From NCBI RefSeq assembly GCF_030163795.1, contig NZ_JASJOF010000008.1, forward strand, positions 62,001 to 126,000: a stretch of DNA of 64,000 bases. The letters are read 5' to 3'. A program made the translations under genes and the position numbers. The DNA comes from Roseicyclus marinus. Its GTDB lineage: Bacteria; Pseudomonadota; Alphaproteobacteria; Rhodobacterales; Rhodobacteraceae. The notes beneath the pieces were generated by a model. That model was not told where the DNA came from. It made no database searches and saw nothing but the letters and a program-made list of their open reading frames with translations. Below are positions 31,552 to 46,040 of this stretch, piece by piece; position 1 is the stretch's first letter, and the number at the start of each line of letters is the position of its first letter.

Positions 31552-32514
31552 ATGACCGTAAAAACCACAATCATCGGCCTCGGCATCATGGGACGGCGCA
31601 TGTTGGACCACATGCTCCGGCACCCCGGCTACGAGGTCACGGCGATCTGGGACCCCGATCCGCAGTCTTGCAAGGATGCGCTGGCGCTGGCACCCGGCCT
31701 GTCCATCGCCACCTCGGCCGAGGCCGCGATCGCGGCCACGGATCTCGTCTATCTCGCCTGCCCGCCCGTGCCCCGCAAAGCCCATGCGCTGACCGCGCTC
31801 GGTTCGGGCAAGGCCGTCTTCCTCGAAAAACCGCTCGGCGTCGACATCGCCGAAAGCGAGGCGCTGGTGGCCGCCTGCACCGACAGCGGTCTTCCCGCTG
31901 CGGTCAATTTCACACAGGCCGCAGGCGCCGCCCTGACCGGTGTGTCCGAGGCCGCCCGCACCGGCGCGCTCGGCACCCTGCAGGGCGTCGATATCGTCGT
32001 CACCTACGCCGATTGGCCGCGAAGCTGGCAAAAGGCAGCCGATTGGCTGCGCTTCCGCGACGAAGGCGGCATGACCCGCGAGGTGATCTCGCATTTCCTG
32101 TTCTTTTCCGAGCGGATCCTCGGCCCGCTCACCCTCGTCTGGGCCAAGCCCTCCTACCCGGCCGATCCGACGCTGTGCGAAACCCACATGCTCGCCCGCC
32201 TCGAGAATGCGGAGGGCCTGCCGGTGACGATCATGGCCAGCGTCGGCGGCGCGCAACCGGACAGACAGGAACTGACGGTCAAGGGCTCGCTCACCAGCCG
32301 CCGGATCACCGATTTCTACGTCGATGCCCGGTCCGACGGCGGCCCCTTCACCGAGATCGCGGAGCGCCCCGCCGATCCCCGCGCCGTCAGCCTCAAGGCA
32401 CAGCTGGACGATCTGCTTCTTTGCCTTCAGGGCAAACCCAACAGGCTCGCCACACCGGCCGAGGCGCTGCGCGTCCAGAAACTCGTCGAGGCCATGTTGC
32501 ACGCCTCCGGCTAG
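31552..32514 (+). CDS. Gfo/Idh/MocA family oxidoreductase
   Basis: This 320-residue NAD(P)-dependent dehydrogenase has an N-terminal Rossmann fold (TTIIGLGIMGRRMLDHML) and the family Lys motif AVFLEKPLGVDIAESEAL (EKP). The C-terminal alpha/beta domain contains the expected His region REVISHFLFFSERILGP. Substrates in this family are mostly sugars, inositols or related polyols and cannot be told here. The TAG stop at 32512-32514 is the first three bases of a RIME-like repeat, so the natural end of the protein may have been changed by the repeat. ATG 31552 follows CAGGAACGGGA. Confidence 0.88.
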   Translation: MTVKTTIIGLGIMGRRMLDHMLRHPGYEVTAIWDPDPQSCKDALALAPGLSIATSAEAAIAATDLVYLACPPVPRKAHALTALGSGKAVFLEKPLGVDIAESEALVAACTDSGLPAAVNFTQAAGAALTGVSEAARTGALGTLQGVDIVVTYADWPRSWQKAADWLRFRDEGGMTREVISHFLFFSERILGPLTLVWAKPSYPADPTLCETHMLARLENAEGLPVTIMASVGGAQPDRQELTVKGSLTSRRITDFYVDARSDGGPFTEIAERPADPRAVSLKAQLDDLLLCLQGKPNRLATPAEALRVQKLVEAMLHASG

Positions 32515-32618
32515 AGCACGTCGTGCAAAAGTGGGAACCGGTTTTGCGCTCCCCGGACATGCGACATCAGAAGGTTGGAGACCGGCGCGTGACTGCGACT
32601 GACCGCGACGGGCTCCAA
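32512..32618 (+). repeat. RIME-like 107-bp palindromic repeat, copy A
   Basis: This element starts TAGAGCACGTCGTGCAAAAG and ends near GGGCTCCAA. It aligns end to end without gaps with 46040-45934 on the minus strand, at about four-fifths identity by eye and with an identical 28-base core (32524-32551). The core contains GCAAAA...TTTTGC arms. Length and double-palindrome layout resemble the rhizobial RIME1 element (comparison from memory). Its first bases supply the stop codon of the oxidoreductase gene. Confidence 0.8.
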
Positions 32619-32693
32619 GGGCCGCCGGGCCGTTTTCACATCTGTTGAAACAGATCGTGCGGCGCTTGCCCGACTCAGGGGACAAGGCGCTCA

Positions 32694-32737
32694 CTCCTCC
32701 CATGCCGGACAGGCATGGTGCCACCGGCACGGAGGAG
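32694..32737 (+). ncRNA. Candidate three-way-junction RNA sequestering a Shine-Dalgarno sequence
   Basis: Three stems pair perfectly and abut one another with no unpaired junction base. P1 is CTCCTCC (32694-32700) with GGAGGAG (32731-32737). P2 is CATGCC (32701-32706) with GGCATG (32712-32717). P3 is GTGCC (32718-32722) with GGCAC (32726-32730). The 3' strand of P1 is the ribosome binding site of the 18-codon ORF at 32745, so folding would hide it. A near-perfect dyad, ATCTGTT-GA-AACAGAT, lies upstream at 32640-32655. No known riboswitch family is recognised. Confidence 0.55.
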
Positions 32738-32744
32738 AACGCCC

Positions 32745-32801
32745 ATGGGCGACAAGAAACCCACGACCAAGAAAGCCGGCGGCGGCAAGCCCGGCAAGTA
32801 A
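32745..32801 (+). CDS. Tiny lysine-rich peptide (18 aa)
   Basis: The frame encodes MGDKKPTTKKAGGGKPGK and stops. It follows an ideal ribosome site (GGAGGAG, seven bases before the ATG) that can be masked by the three-way junction. The peptide has six Lys and one Asp, is rich in Gly and Pro, and has no hydrophobic stretch. It could be a nucleic-acid-binding micropeptide, a leader peptide or simply a device for translation-coupled control. Nothing in the sequence decides between these. A longer frame running through this region in another phase has no ribosome site. Confidence 0.5.
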   Translation: MGDKKPTTKKAGGGKPGK

Positions 32802-32926
32802 CGCCTGACCGACCACGGCCCCGCGTCGGGCGCGGACCGGCGCGGGGCATCCGCCTGCGACAGGCCGCCTCGGTTGCTGCGGCGCAGCATTGCCCTATTT
32901 GCCTCCTTGCGAACAGGAGACAGATC

Positions 32927-33178
32927 ATGAGCCTTGCCCCCGAAACCCCCCGCCCCCGCTACATCACCCGCCACGTCACCTACCGCCTGCCCATCATCGG
33001 CCGCATGGCGCGCGAAGTCGTCGAAGGGCCGGTGGACAACGCCTTCGCCGCCGTCATCGGCGCCGTTTCCGCCGTGGCCATCGGTGTGCTGATCTGGGGC
33101 TATCCCGCCCTGATCTTCTCGGCGCTGCTGGCAGCCGCCCTGATGCTCGTGACGCTGGTCCGCATCACGCTCGGCTGA
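32927..33178 (+). CDS. Small two-helix membrane protein (83 aa)
   Basis: The protein has a basic, proline-containing N-terminus (TPRPRYITRHVTYRLPIIG). Two hydrophobic helices follow, AFAAVIGAVSAVAIGVLIW and YPALIFSALLAAALMLVTLV. A good ribosome site (CAGGAG) lies upstream of ATG 32927. It is convergent with maeB, with only six bases between stops. The family is not recognised. It may share a transcript with the 18-codon ORF 125 bases upstream. Confidence 0.75.
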   Translation: MSLAPETPRPRYITRHVTYRLPIIGRMAREVVEGPVDNAFAAVIGAVSAVAIGVLIWGYPALIFSALLAAALMLVTLVRITLG

Positions 33179-33184
33179 GGCCCG

Positions 33185-35464
33185 TCAGCTGTAAGTGCTG
33201 ACAGGCGTCCCGGCGAGCGCCGCGATGTTGAGCAGGCCACGCGGCGTGATCGAGGGCGTCACGATATGCGCCCGGTTGCCCATCCCCATCAGGATCGGCC
33301 CGACCTCCAGACCACCCGCGCGCATCTTCAAAATGTTGCGCGCGGCCCCGGCCGCATCCGTGCTGGCAAAGACCAGCGCATTGGCCGCGCCCTCCATCCG
33401 GCTCTCGGGCAAGAGCCGCGCCCGCAAATCGCCATCCAGCGCCACGTCGACCGGCATTTCCCCCTCGTAGGTGAAATCCAGCCCCATCCCGTCGAGGATC
33501 TCCAGCGCCGCGCGCATCCGCCGCCCGCTGCCGCTGTCGAGGTTGCCGAACTGGCTCCCCGAACACAGCGCCACCTGCGGCGCGATGCCGAACCGCCGGA
33601 TATGCCGCGCGCATCCGCGCACGGTTTCCGCGATCTGCTCGGGCGTGGGTTCGGGGTGGATCTGCGTATCCGCGATGAACAACGGCCCGGTATCCGCGAT
33701 GATCAGCGACAGCGCGCCCACCGGGCGCAACCCGTCCCGGCCCAGGATCTGGTTCACGTATTTCAGGTGCCACAGGTACTGGCCAAAAGTCCCGCAGATC
33801 AGGCTGTCCGCCTCGCCACGCTGCACCATGACCGCGCCGATGGCCGTGGTATTGGTGCGCATGATCGCGCGCGCCAGATCGGGCGTCACACCGCGCCGCG
33901 CCATGATCGAATGATAGCTCTGCCAGTAATCGCGGTAGCGCGGATCGTTTTCCGGGTTCACCAGATCGAAATCCACCCCCGCCTTCAGCGTCAGGCCCGC
34001 CCGTTCGATCCGGCTCTCGATCACCTCGGGACGGCCGATCAGGATCGGCTTGTCGGTGGTTTCCTCCGAAATCGCCTGCGCCGCGCGCAGCACCCGCTCG
34101 TCCTCGCCCTCGGCAAAGACGATCCGGCGCTCTGCATTGCGCGCCGCCTCGAAAACCGGGCGCATGATCAGCGCCGATTTGAACACCGACTGGTTCAACC
34201 GCTCGCGATAGGCCTCGATATCGTCCAAGGGTCGTGTCGCTACGCCCGAGTCCATCGCGGCTTTGGCCACGGCACTGGCCACCACCCCGATCAGACGGCG
34301 ATCAAAGGGTTTGGGGATCAGGTAATCGGCCCCGAATGTCAGCTGCTCCCCCGCATAGGCGGCGGCGGCCTCGGCACTCGTCGTGGCCCGCGCCAGCGCC
34401 GCGATCCCTTCGATGCAGGCGATCTGCATCGCATCGTTGATCTCGGTCGCGCCCACGTCCAGCGCGCCGCGGAAGATGAAGGGGAAACACAGGACGTTAT
34501 TGACCTGGTTGGGGAAATCGCTCCGCCCCGTGGCGATGATCGCATCGGGCGCGACACTGCGCACCTCGTCGGGCAGGATTTCCGGCATCGGATTGGCCAG
34601 CGCGAACACGATGGGCCGCGGCGCCATCCGCGCCACCATCTCGGGCTTCAGAACGCCCGGACCCGACAGGCCCAGGAACAGGTCCGCACCGTCGATCACC
34701 TCGTCCAGCGTGCGCAGATCGGTCTTCTGCGCATAGGCCGCCTTTTGCGGGTTCATGTCGATCTCGCGCCCCTCGTGGACGAGACCGTGAATGTCGCACA
34801 ACCAGATATTCTCGCGCTTCACGCCCAGCTTCAGCAGCATGTTCAGGCAGGCGATCCCCGCGGCCCCGCCGCCCGTCGAGACGATCTTGATATCCTCGAA
34901 CCGCTTGCCCGTGACGCGCAGCGCATTGGTGGCCGCAGCCCCCACCACGATGGCCGTGCCGTGCTGGTCGTCGTGGAACACGGGGATGTTCATCCGCTCG
35001 CGGCAGATCTGTTCAACGATGAAACAATCGGGTGCCTTGATGTCCTCGAGGTTCACCGCGCCGAATGTCGGCTCCAGCGCGCAGACGATCTCGGCCAGCT
35101 TCACCGGGTCGGGTTCGTTCAGTTCGATGTCGAAGCAATCGATGTTGGCGAAAGTCTTGAACAAGACCGCCTTGCCTTCCATCACGGGCTTGGACGCAAG
35201 CGCCCCGATGTTGCCCAGACCCAGCACGGCCGTTCCGTTCGACACCACCGCCACAAGGTTCCCGCGCGAGGTGTAACGCGCCGCATTGCTCGGGTCGGCC
35301 TTGATCTCAAGACAGGCCTCGGCCACGCCGGGGCTGTAGGCACGGGCCAGATCTCGCCCGTTCGCCAAGGGCTTGGTGGCGCGGATCTCAAGCTTACCGG
35401 GCTTCGGGAACTCGTGGTAGAGCAGCGCCGCCGACCGCGCCCCGTCCTGCTTGTCTTCGCTCAT
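33185..35464 (-). CDS. maeB: NADP-dependent malic enzyme with C-terminal phosphotransacetylase-like domain
   Basis: This enzyme decarboxylates malate to pyruvate and supplies NADPH. The 759-residue protein has the malic domain (AYSPGVAEACLEIKADP), the catalytic and metal region FVEQICRERMNIPVFHDDQH-like sequence and the Rossmann motif IVSTGGGAAGIACLN. From about residue 430 it has a phosphotransacetylase-like domain (RIVFAEGEDERVLRAAQ). That domain is catalytically inactive but regulatory in studied MaeB enzymes. A perfect 14-base palindrome sits 23 bases upstream of the start. Confidence 0.95.
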   Translation of the reverse strand: MSEDKQDGARSAALLYHEFPKPGKLEIRATKPLANGRDLARAYSPGVAEACLEIKADPSNAARYTSRGNLVAVVSNGTAVLGLGNIGALASKPVMEGKAVLFKTFANIDCFDIELNEPDPVKLAEIVCALEPTFGAVNLEDIKAPDCFIVEQICRERMNIPVFHDDQHGTAIVVGAAATNALRVTGKRFEDIKIVSTGGGAAGIACLNMLLKLGVKRENIWLCDIHGLVHEGREIDMNPQKAAYAQKTDLRTLDEVIDGADLFLGLSGPGVLKPEMVARMAPRPIVFALANPMPEILPDEVRSVAPDAIIATGRSDFPNQVNNVLCFPFIFRGALDVGATEINDAMQIACIEGIAALARATTSAEAAAAYAGEQLTFGADYLIPKPFDRRLIGVVASAVAKAAMDSGVATRPLDDIEAYRERLNQSVFKSALIMRPVFEAARNAERRIVFAEGEDERVLRAAQAISEETTDKPILIGRPEVIESRIERAGLTLKAGVDFDLVNPENDPRYRDYWQSYHSIMARRGVTPDLARAIMRTNTTAIGAVMVQRGEADSLICGTFGQYLWHLKYVNQILGRDGLRPVGALSLIIADTGPLFIADTQIHPEPTPEQIAETVRGCARHIRRFGIAPQVALCSGSQFGNLDSGSGRRMRAALEILDGMGLDFTYEGEMPVDVALDGDLRARLLPESRMEGAANALVFASTDAAGAARNILKMRAGGLEVGPILMGMGNRAHIVTPSITPRGLLNIAALAGTPVSTYS

Positions 35465-45933: not shown

Positions 45934-46040
45934 CTAGAGCGTGTCGCGTTCATTTGCATTCACGCGCCCCCCTCCAGCCTTTTGATACCGCATGTTCGAG
46001 GAGCGCAAAACCGGTTCCCACTTTTGCGCAACATGCTCTA
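45934..46040 (-). repeat. RIME-like 107-bp palindromic repeat, copy B
   Basis: Read on the minus strand from 46040 it begins TAGAGCATGTTGCGCAAAAG and ends CGCGACACGCTCTAG, giving imperfect terminal inverted repeats (TAGAGCRTGTYGCG). It aligns without gaps to 32512-32618. Its first three bases are the TAG stop codon of gcvP. It lies between the tRNA-Glu terminator and gcvP. Confidence 0.8.

Follow-up and report, generated by a model that had tools for sequence, protein, structure and literature searches.

A putative stand-alone microprotein gene with a covarying leader hairpin in Roseicyclus marinus and other Rhodobacterales

Within the window, that is the complete stretch of 64,000 nucleotides of Roseicyclus marinus DNA that was analysed, a short open reading frame (ORF) encoding MGDKKPTTKKAGGGKPGK looks like an undescribed bacterial gene for a strongly positive protein of 18 residues. 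The evidence consists of the coding conservation of the ORF, its synteny with two genes which we take, from knowledge of their sequences, to be prpE and maeB, the covariation of a hairpin in its leader and an excess of pairing around its start codon. We regard it as fairly probable that the locus gives rise to a short regulated mRNA for a stand-alone, disordered and polycationic microprotein of 16–21 residues with a charge of +5 or +6. The interest of the locus lies in this conserved microprotein gene, probably unannotated, and its constrained leader, and not in the junction switch which an initial annotation of the sequence had proposed in front of the ORF.

Coding conservation of the microgene

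A DNA search of 61 genomes, the own genome and 12 congeners among them, retrieved the region from position 32636 onward in four of the 12 congeners (G002, G003, G010 and G011); a fifth congener, G005, matched the upstream repeat only. In the four congeners the ORF is kept nearly letter-for-letter, together with the Shine-Dalgarno sequence, a 40-base upstream stretch and the GC-rich hairpin 3' of the ORF. A sequence model built from the window and these four congeners (R1) was searched against 394 genomes of the family and gave matches at E-values up to 0.1 in 182 of them, many of which are probably due to chance. Of the 29 best foreign R1 loci, the same kind of ORF is present in 22 and absent from seven.

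Furthermore, a pattern search across 84,980 species, each represented by one genome, yielded 16 loci, every one of which contains the ORF. The titles of the records that contain these 16 exact matches all carry Rhodobacterales names (Oceanicola, Silicimonas, Primorskyibacter, Sedimentitalea, Roseovarius, Pontibaca, Albibacillus, Maritimibacter, Pseudooceanicola, Actibacterium, Antarcticimicrobium and Rhodobacteraceae). Albibacillus and Silicimonas were placed in this order by a taxonomy look-up, and the remaining genera belong to it as well. Pseudooceanicola onchidii and Silicimonas algicola, both culturable and with known genomes, are among the species that contain the gene. As far as named, the microgene loci are all Rhodobacterales, and nine of the 16 pattern loci match loci from the window's own family without a difference over 300 bases, which puts the window in this order as well.

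A second model which includes the leader hairpin (R2) reached at least 37 bits in 29 of the 394 family genomes, many of which had supplied sequences to the model and one of which (G067) encodes another small protein. Across the 289 genomes searched in the class, the match in the own genome scores 59.1 bits and the next best 29.6 bits. In its own genome the microgene is a single copy, no other R2 match lying above 17.3 bits. On annotated plasmids no copy was found by tblastn with a 20-residue member, a search in which the low-complexity filter may hide matches, and a DNA query of 32515-33180 matched there to the upstream repeat only.

After the removal of repeats, 35 distinct loci encode 32 distinct peptides. 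These have 18 residues in 25 of the 35 loci and 16, 17, 19, 20 or 21 residues in the others. The typical peptide reads MGDKKxKPxKPGTKTVKK, and M1, D3, K5, K10 and K18 are invariant in all 25 peptides of 18 residues. The net charge is +5 or +6 in all 35 loci, which agrees with the basic micropeptide initially described, and the protein is probably disordered and polycationic.

On the codon level, 888 of 1498 single-step differences among the 35 loci are synonymous compared to 336 expected, a figure that is strong without amounting to a formal test, since the sequence pairs are not independent. The mean difference at codon positions 1, 2 and 3 is 0.248, 0.270 and 0.378, respectively. From the homologues and the synonymous excess, the 18-codon ORF (ATG at 32745) is very probably a real gene, as had been claimed. 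The codon differences indicate selection on the encoded amino acids of a short ORF that has its own ribosome site, as expected of a stand-alone microprotein gene.

The leader, its two hairpins and the putative promoter

The features of the locus are collected in Table 1.

Table 1. Features of the microgene locus in window coordinates
Feature	Position	Strand	Basis or remark
Dyad ATCTGTTGAAACAGAT, putative operator	32640..32655	.	Centre 97 bases before the ATG; function predicted
Putative -35 TTGCCC	32666..32671	+	CTTG invariant in five genus sequences; by eye
Putative -10 CTCACT, poor consensus match	32690..32695	+	Predicted from position relative to TNNGAT-like hexamers of homologues
Three-way junction of the initial annotation	32694..32737	+	Letters confirmed; not conserved in four congeners
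Probable transcription start	32702 (about 32701-32703)	+	Spacing from putative -10; hairpin then at the 5' end
5' hairpin TGCCGG-ACA-GGCA-TGG-TGCC-A-CCGGCA	32703..32729	+	Fold of 32702-32756; core in register with homologues
Shine-Dalgarno GGAGGAG	32731..32737	+	GAGGA invariant in five genus sequences
Start-codon hairpin CGCC-CATG-GGCG	32740..32751	+	Four pairs in the window; AUG in the loop
Microprotein ORF MGDKKPTTKKAGGGKPGK	32745..32801	+	Homologues in 35 distinct loci; mostly synonymous codon changes
GC-rich hairpin after the ORF, 12 pairs, loop of 7	32818..32848	+	Terminator-like without T-run
Small membrane-protein-like ORF, 84 codons with stop	32927..33178	+	Also in two congeners without the microgene
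maeB (malic enzyme-like), convergent neighbour	33185..35464	-	ORF; neighbour in 38 of 43 stretches

In MAFFT alignments, a hairpin of the general form GGC-NNNNN-GCC lies 18–24 bases upstream of the ATG in most loci, and its core in the window is GGC-ATGGT-GCC (32712-32722). Pairing was counted in an alignment of 28 of the 35 loci (A5), which omits L002, L004, L032, L040, L049, L050 and L052. Here, 85.6% of the cells are paired compared to 74.6% after shuffling, with 0 of 500 shuffles as high; seven of the eight pairs are changed on both sides, and slid partners give 37.9–53.1%. Since the A5 sequences had been trimmed at the best hairpin, the count was repeated on 27 sequences trimmed at a constant distance from the ATG (A4), which include all seven loci omitted from A5. 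In this alignment, 79.0% of the cells are paired compared to 70.4% after shuffling, again with none of 500 shuffles as high, seven of eight pairs are changed on both sides and slid partners give 32.0–51.4%. RNAalifold on A5 returned only five pairs, at -3.95 kcal/mol and with a covariation term of -0.28.

These counts support the structured leader of the initial annotation, via the covarying 5' hairpin rather than via the proposed junction. As far as the alignments indicate, the structure that covaries is this hairpin, which shares some bases with the junction in another pairing. The window itself is an atypical member. In the simple register it pairs at the core only and is extended by different pairs (TGCCGG with CCGGCA), and in the best fold of 32702-32801 the leader is instead paired with codons of the ORF.

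A second hairpin surrounds the start codon. The bases flanking the AUG are complementary over up to eight pairs, the typical form being GTTGCC-ATG-GGCGAC. At least five pairs are present in 14 of the 35 loci compared to 1 of 122 control ATGs, and the summed score of 405 lies above the maximum of 261 in 2000 letter shuffles. When the upstream octamers were dealt among the loci, this score was reached three times in 2000. Ten of the 35 loci score 6 or less, and the 3' side of the hairpin is also coding and nearly invariant.

A Shine-Dalgarno-like sequence was scored in 32 loci. If these are folded from the hairpin on, its mean unpaired probability is 0.54 and exceeds 0.5 in 18 of the 32, and therefore a fully open ribosome site is not general. 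In the window, the mean unpaired probability of the Shine-Dalgarno sequence is 0.00 for an RNA starting at 32694, 0.64 for 32702-32801 and 0.98 for 32702-32756. An RNA starting near 32702 would thus be predicted to leave the ribosome site open in the local fold. Since a consensus promoter scan of 32400-33300 gave no promoter, this start is one that we infer. In several homologues, TTG and TNNGAT-like boxes read by eye (for example TTGGAT in L034) would likewise place the RNA start at the hairpin.

Upstream of the putative promoter, the dyad noted in the initial annotation (ATCTGTT-GA-AACAGAT) is present 38 bases before the junction and forms part of the unit. A weaker dyad lies at -96 in the congener L002, and in L003, L004 and L006 the dyad is imperfect or absent. 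Among the homologous loci, 16 of 35 contain CGAC-N5..10-GTCG compared to 0.15 expected from mononucleotide shuffling. In the ten loci where this motif is also the best inverted repeat, its centre is located 96 to 99.5 bases upstream of the ATG. The natural reading is that the dyad would be the site of a regulator. At the other end of the unit, the GC-rich hairpin after the ORF is present in five genus sequences; a terminator scan did not list it.

In the reading which we consider fairly probable, a regulator might act at the dyad, about 54 bases before the transcription start, and a weak promoter would yield a short mRNA, about 150 bases in length. The 5' hairpin, located at or very near the end of this mRNA, would protect the 5' end. 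The Shine-Dalgarno sequence would be displayed between this hairpin and the small hairpin with the AUG in its loop, and the mRNA would end after the GC-rich hairpin 3' of the peptide ORF. The peptide itself most likely binds a polyanion, which could be RNA, ribosomes, DNA or an acidic protein surface. Transcription and its start site, the regulator, the stability of the RNA and the function of the peptide are thus what we infer from the arrangement of the locus.

A small regulatory RNA, in which the conserved hairpins act and the ORF is incidental or a second function, would also explain the short unit with its structured ends, its intergenic position and the covarying hairpin. However, codon changes are mostly synonymous and the ORFs of 16–21 codons keep their frame, charge and ends, which argues for selection on the peptide. 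Besides the ribosome site, no conserved unpaired seed was noticed. The one sub-threshold match to the sRNA SorX, at L033:1497-1571 on the plus strand of that locus (26.2 bits compared to 46.6, E 0.039), is antisense to the microgene. A regulatory RNA is therefore an unlikely explanation.

Autoregulation is likewise improbable. Here, the basic peptide would bind its own two-hairpin leader and shut off its own translation. Such a mechanism would suit a polycation encoded beside a conserved two-hairpin ribosome site, all the more as part of the start-codon hairpin lies in codons of the peptide, but the loop sequence of the 5' hairpin varies among the loci (AUGGU, GCGGU, AUUCC and ACAGG).

Through weaker R2 matches, longer small basic proteins were found that have a similar hairpin. 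Five loci (L102, L106, L134, L146 and L151) encode K/P-rich proteins of 29–43 residues and have a like hairpin or the prpE-maeB site; L106 encodes 29 residues between prpE and maeB, and L102 encodes 43 residues beside maeB. These longer K/P-rich proteins may connect the peptides of 18 residues with a larger family.

Furthermore, small basic proteins with an NRGNREAKKPK core were observed in 23 of 120 family genomes (L105, L156 and L167-L191). Among the 21 readable loci, out of 23 given and 25 matched, a hairpin with a score of at least 17 lies upstream of the ATG in 11, a count made with no null, and the hairpin of L105 is nearly the same as that of the microgene. These proteins resemble the microgene peptides in being small and lysine-rich, in occurring in the same bacterial family and in often having a hairpin before the ribosome site. 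In contrast, they have 41 or more residues, another conserved core and other genomic places. The microgene peptides, with their 16–21 residues, are shorter than the relatives of 41–44 residues, and an NRGNREAKKPK-like core is absent from all 35 of them. It is conceivable, but doubtful, that one two-hairpin leader, consisting of a 5' hairpin, an open Shine-Dalgarno sequence and a start codon in the loop of the second hairpin, is common to a set of small, strongly basic Rhodobacterales proteins, the prpE-maeB and the NRGNREAKKPK ones among them, with the peptides binding such hairpins and regulating the translation both of themselves and of one another.

The three-way junction and the genomic site

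The initial annotation had centred on a perfect three-way junction that hides the ribosome site. Its letters and coordinates are right: the outer stem CTCCTCC/GGAGGAG pairs 32694-32700 with 32731-32737, the second stem CATGCC/GGCATG pairs 32701-32706 with 32712-32717 and the third stem GTGCC/GGCAC pairs 32718-32722 with 32726-32730. The stems of 7, 6 and 5 pairs abut with zero unpaired junction bases. When perfect three-way junctions with zero linkers were searched for (at least five Watson-Crick pairs in each stem, loops of 3–10), this one was found on the plus strand of the window and none on the plus strand of ten first-order Markov copies. The minus strand gave one match, whose place was not printed and which is probably the complement of the same site. 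As a pattern the junction is thus rare, as had been argued, but the pattern had been picked after it was sighted. Folding is stronger than chance for 32690-32741 (z -4.96) and for 32640-32801 (z -2.76).

The predicted energies do not single out the junction as the preferred structure: an extended hairpin that retains its outer stem is equally stable (-27.7 compared to -27.4 kcal/mol). In the alignment of the window with the four congeners, the junction pairs are formed in 64.0% of the cells compared to 63.8% after shuffling, and 1 of 18 pairs is changed on both sides. This rules out the junction as a conserved structure. The congeners retain the ORF and their stems lack compensatory changes, the very outcome that had been named beforehand as speaking against the proposal, and a functional switch is not supported. 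The conserved core GGC-ATGGT-GCC is incompatible with the second and third stem, which would break it. The strand CTCCTCC (32694-32700) is specific to the window and represents a local peculiarity of this genome; it probably lies upstream of the RNA start and would be absent from the RNA.

A switch which conceals the ribosome site until a signal opens it is therefore very unlikely, even though its junction is perfect and rare by chance. The hidden ribosome site holds insofar as the Shine-Dalgarno sequence is fully paired in an RNA that begins at 32694, and this pairing, which an RNA thermometer would also require, is seen in the window only if the RNA includes 32694-32700, that is the window-specific strand which probably lies 5' of the RNA start. 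Even then the junction need not form, since the equally stable extended hairpin closes the site as well. In this way, a conspicuous fold seen in a single genome can be misleading, with relatives that keep the gene and use another fold.

The genomic site was compared in 43 stretches with the ORF, eight of them repeats. Both prpE and maeB are seen in 33 stretches, prpE only in five and maeB only in five, so that maeB stands beside the microgene in 38 of 43. Both genes are always on the strand opposite to the microgene, which mostly lies between a divergent prpE and a convergent maeB.

In the window, as in four other stretches, prpE is not in view. Where relatives have prpE, an ORF that appears oxidoreductase-like by eye is located (31560-32514). 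An interspersed repeat of about 100 bases, of the GTGCAAAAGTGGGAACCGGTTTTGCG type, occurs at 32515-32615 and, on the minus strand, at 45937-46037, with 11 further matches in the own genome and 14 in G005. Its first copy abuts the upstream region of the microgene and lies at the border of the oxidoreductase-like ORF, as if the site had been rearranged. The repeat may be related to BjsR3, a repeat described as terminator-like in PMC5082802.

In 30 chosen genomes, mostly without a model match, maeB was found in 29, with prpE in the same stretch in 25 of the 29. The microgene is absent from 28 of these 29 maeB flanks in genomes chosen as non-hits or weak hits, six congeners included; the one positive is a 30-codon version in G016. 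The simplest reading of this patchy distribution would be an old gene that has been lost many times. The constant site beside prpE weakly suggests a link to propionate or central carbon metabolism.

The membrane-protein gene pointed out as a neighbour in the initial annotation is indeed found in the window's genus, but elsewhere the site is a different one, with 33 of 43 stretches showing prpE and maeB. The membrane-protein-like ORF is probably a separate gene; it is conserved in the genus and present without the microgene in the congeners L116 and L117. Control of a downstream gene by the microgene as a leader peptide through attenuation, for which this co-directional ORF would be the target in the window's genus, is highly improbable, since most stretches offer no co-directional target with maeB convergent on the opposite strand in 38 of 43, two congeners have the membrane ORF without the microgene, the GC-rich hairpin lies between both ORFs and the peptide has no runs of one regulatory codon.

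Comparison with known families and systems

No Rfam family reached its gathering score in 32400-33300 of the window or in 18 homologous loci. A known RNA family is ruled out at these thresholds, and the initial statement that no known riboswitch family is matched stands. Pfam and NCBIfam gave no family for three members of 20–21 residues and one of 30. This protein family scan covers at least 20 residues, and the 18-residue peptide of the window is below its limit; families this small are therefore easily missed. A description of the microgene was not found in the literature searched, mainly open-access main texts. The main-text passages of PMC4809877, PMC5107571 and PMC5082802 do not list the locus, and their sRNA supplementary tables may still do so.

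If translated, the microgene would rank with the smallest bacterial protein families that are conserved, stand alone and have a leader supported by covariation. Its position next to prpE and maeB is fixed in many Rhodobacterales of marine and soil origin, and the clear constraints on codons and structure make its function testable by deletion.

Within the related genus Rhodobacter, Pos19 of Rhodobacter sphaeroides is also a small coding RNA. As described in PMC5036791, it has 219 nt and belongs to the RpoE regulon, a description which sets it apart from the microgene.

Hairpins at the 5' terminus of mRNAs, such as that of ompA, protect the 5' end. The microgene hairpin resembles these in its predicted position at the 5' end, just before the ribosome site.

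In kind, the microgene is comparable to the stand-alone microproteins of bacteria. Similar to these, it would have its own short transcription unit, shows conserved codons with synonymous changes and is missed by family libraries. In contrast, its peptide of 16–21 residues is strongly enriched in K, P and G and is not a membrane peptide.
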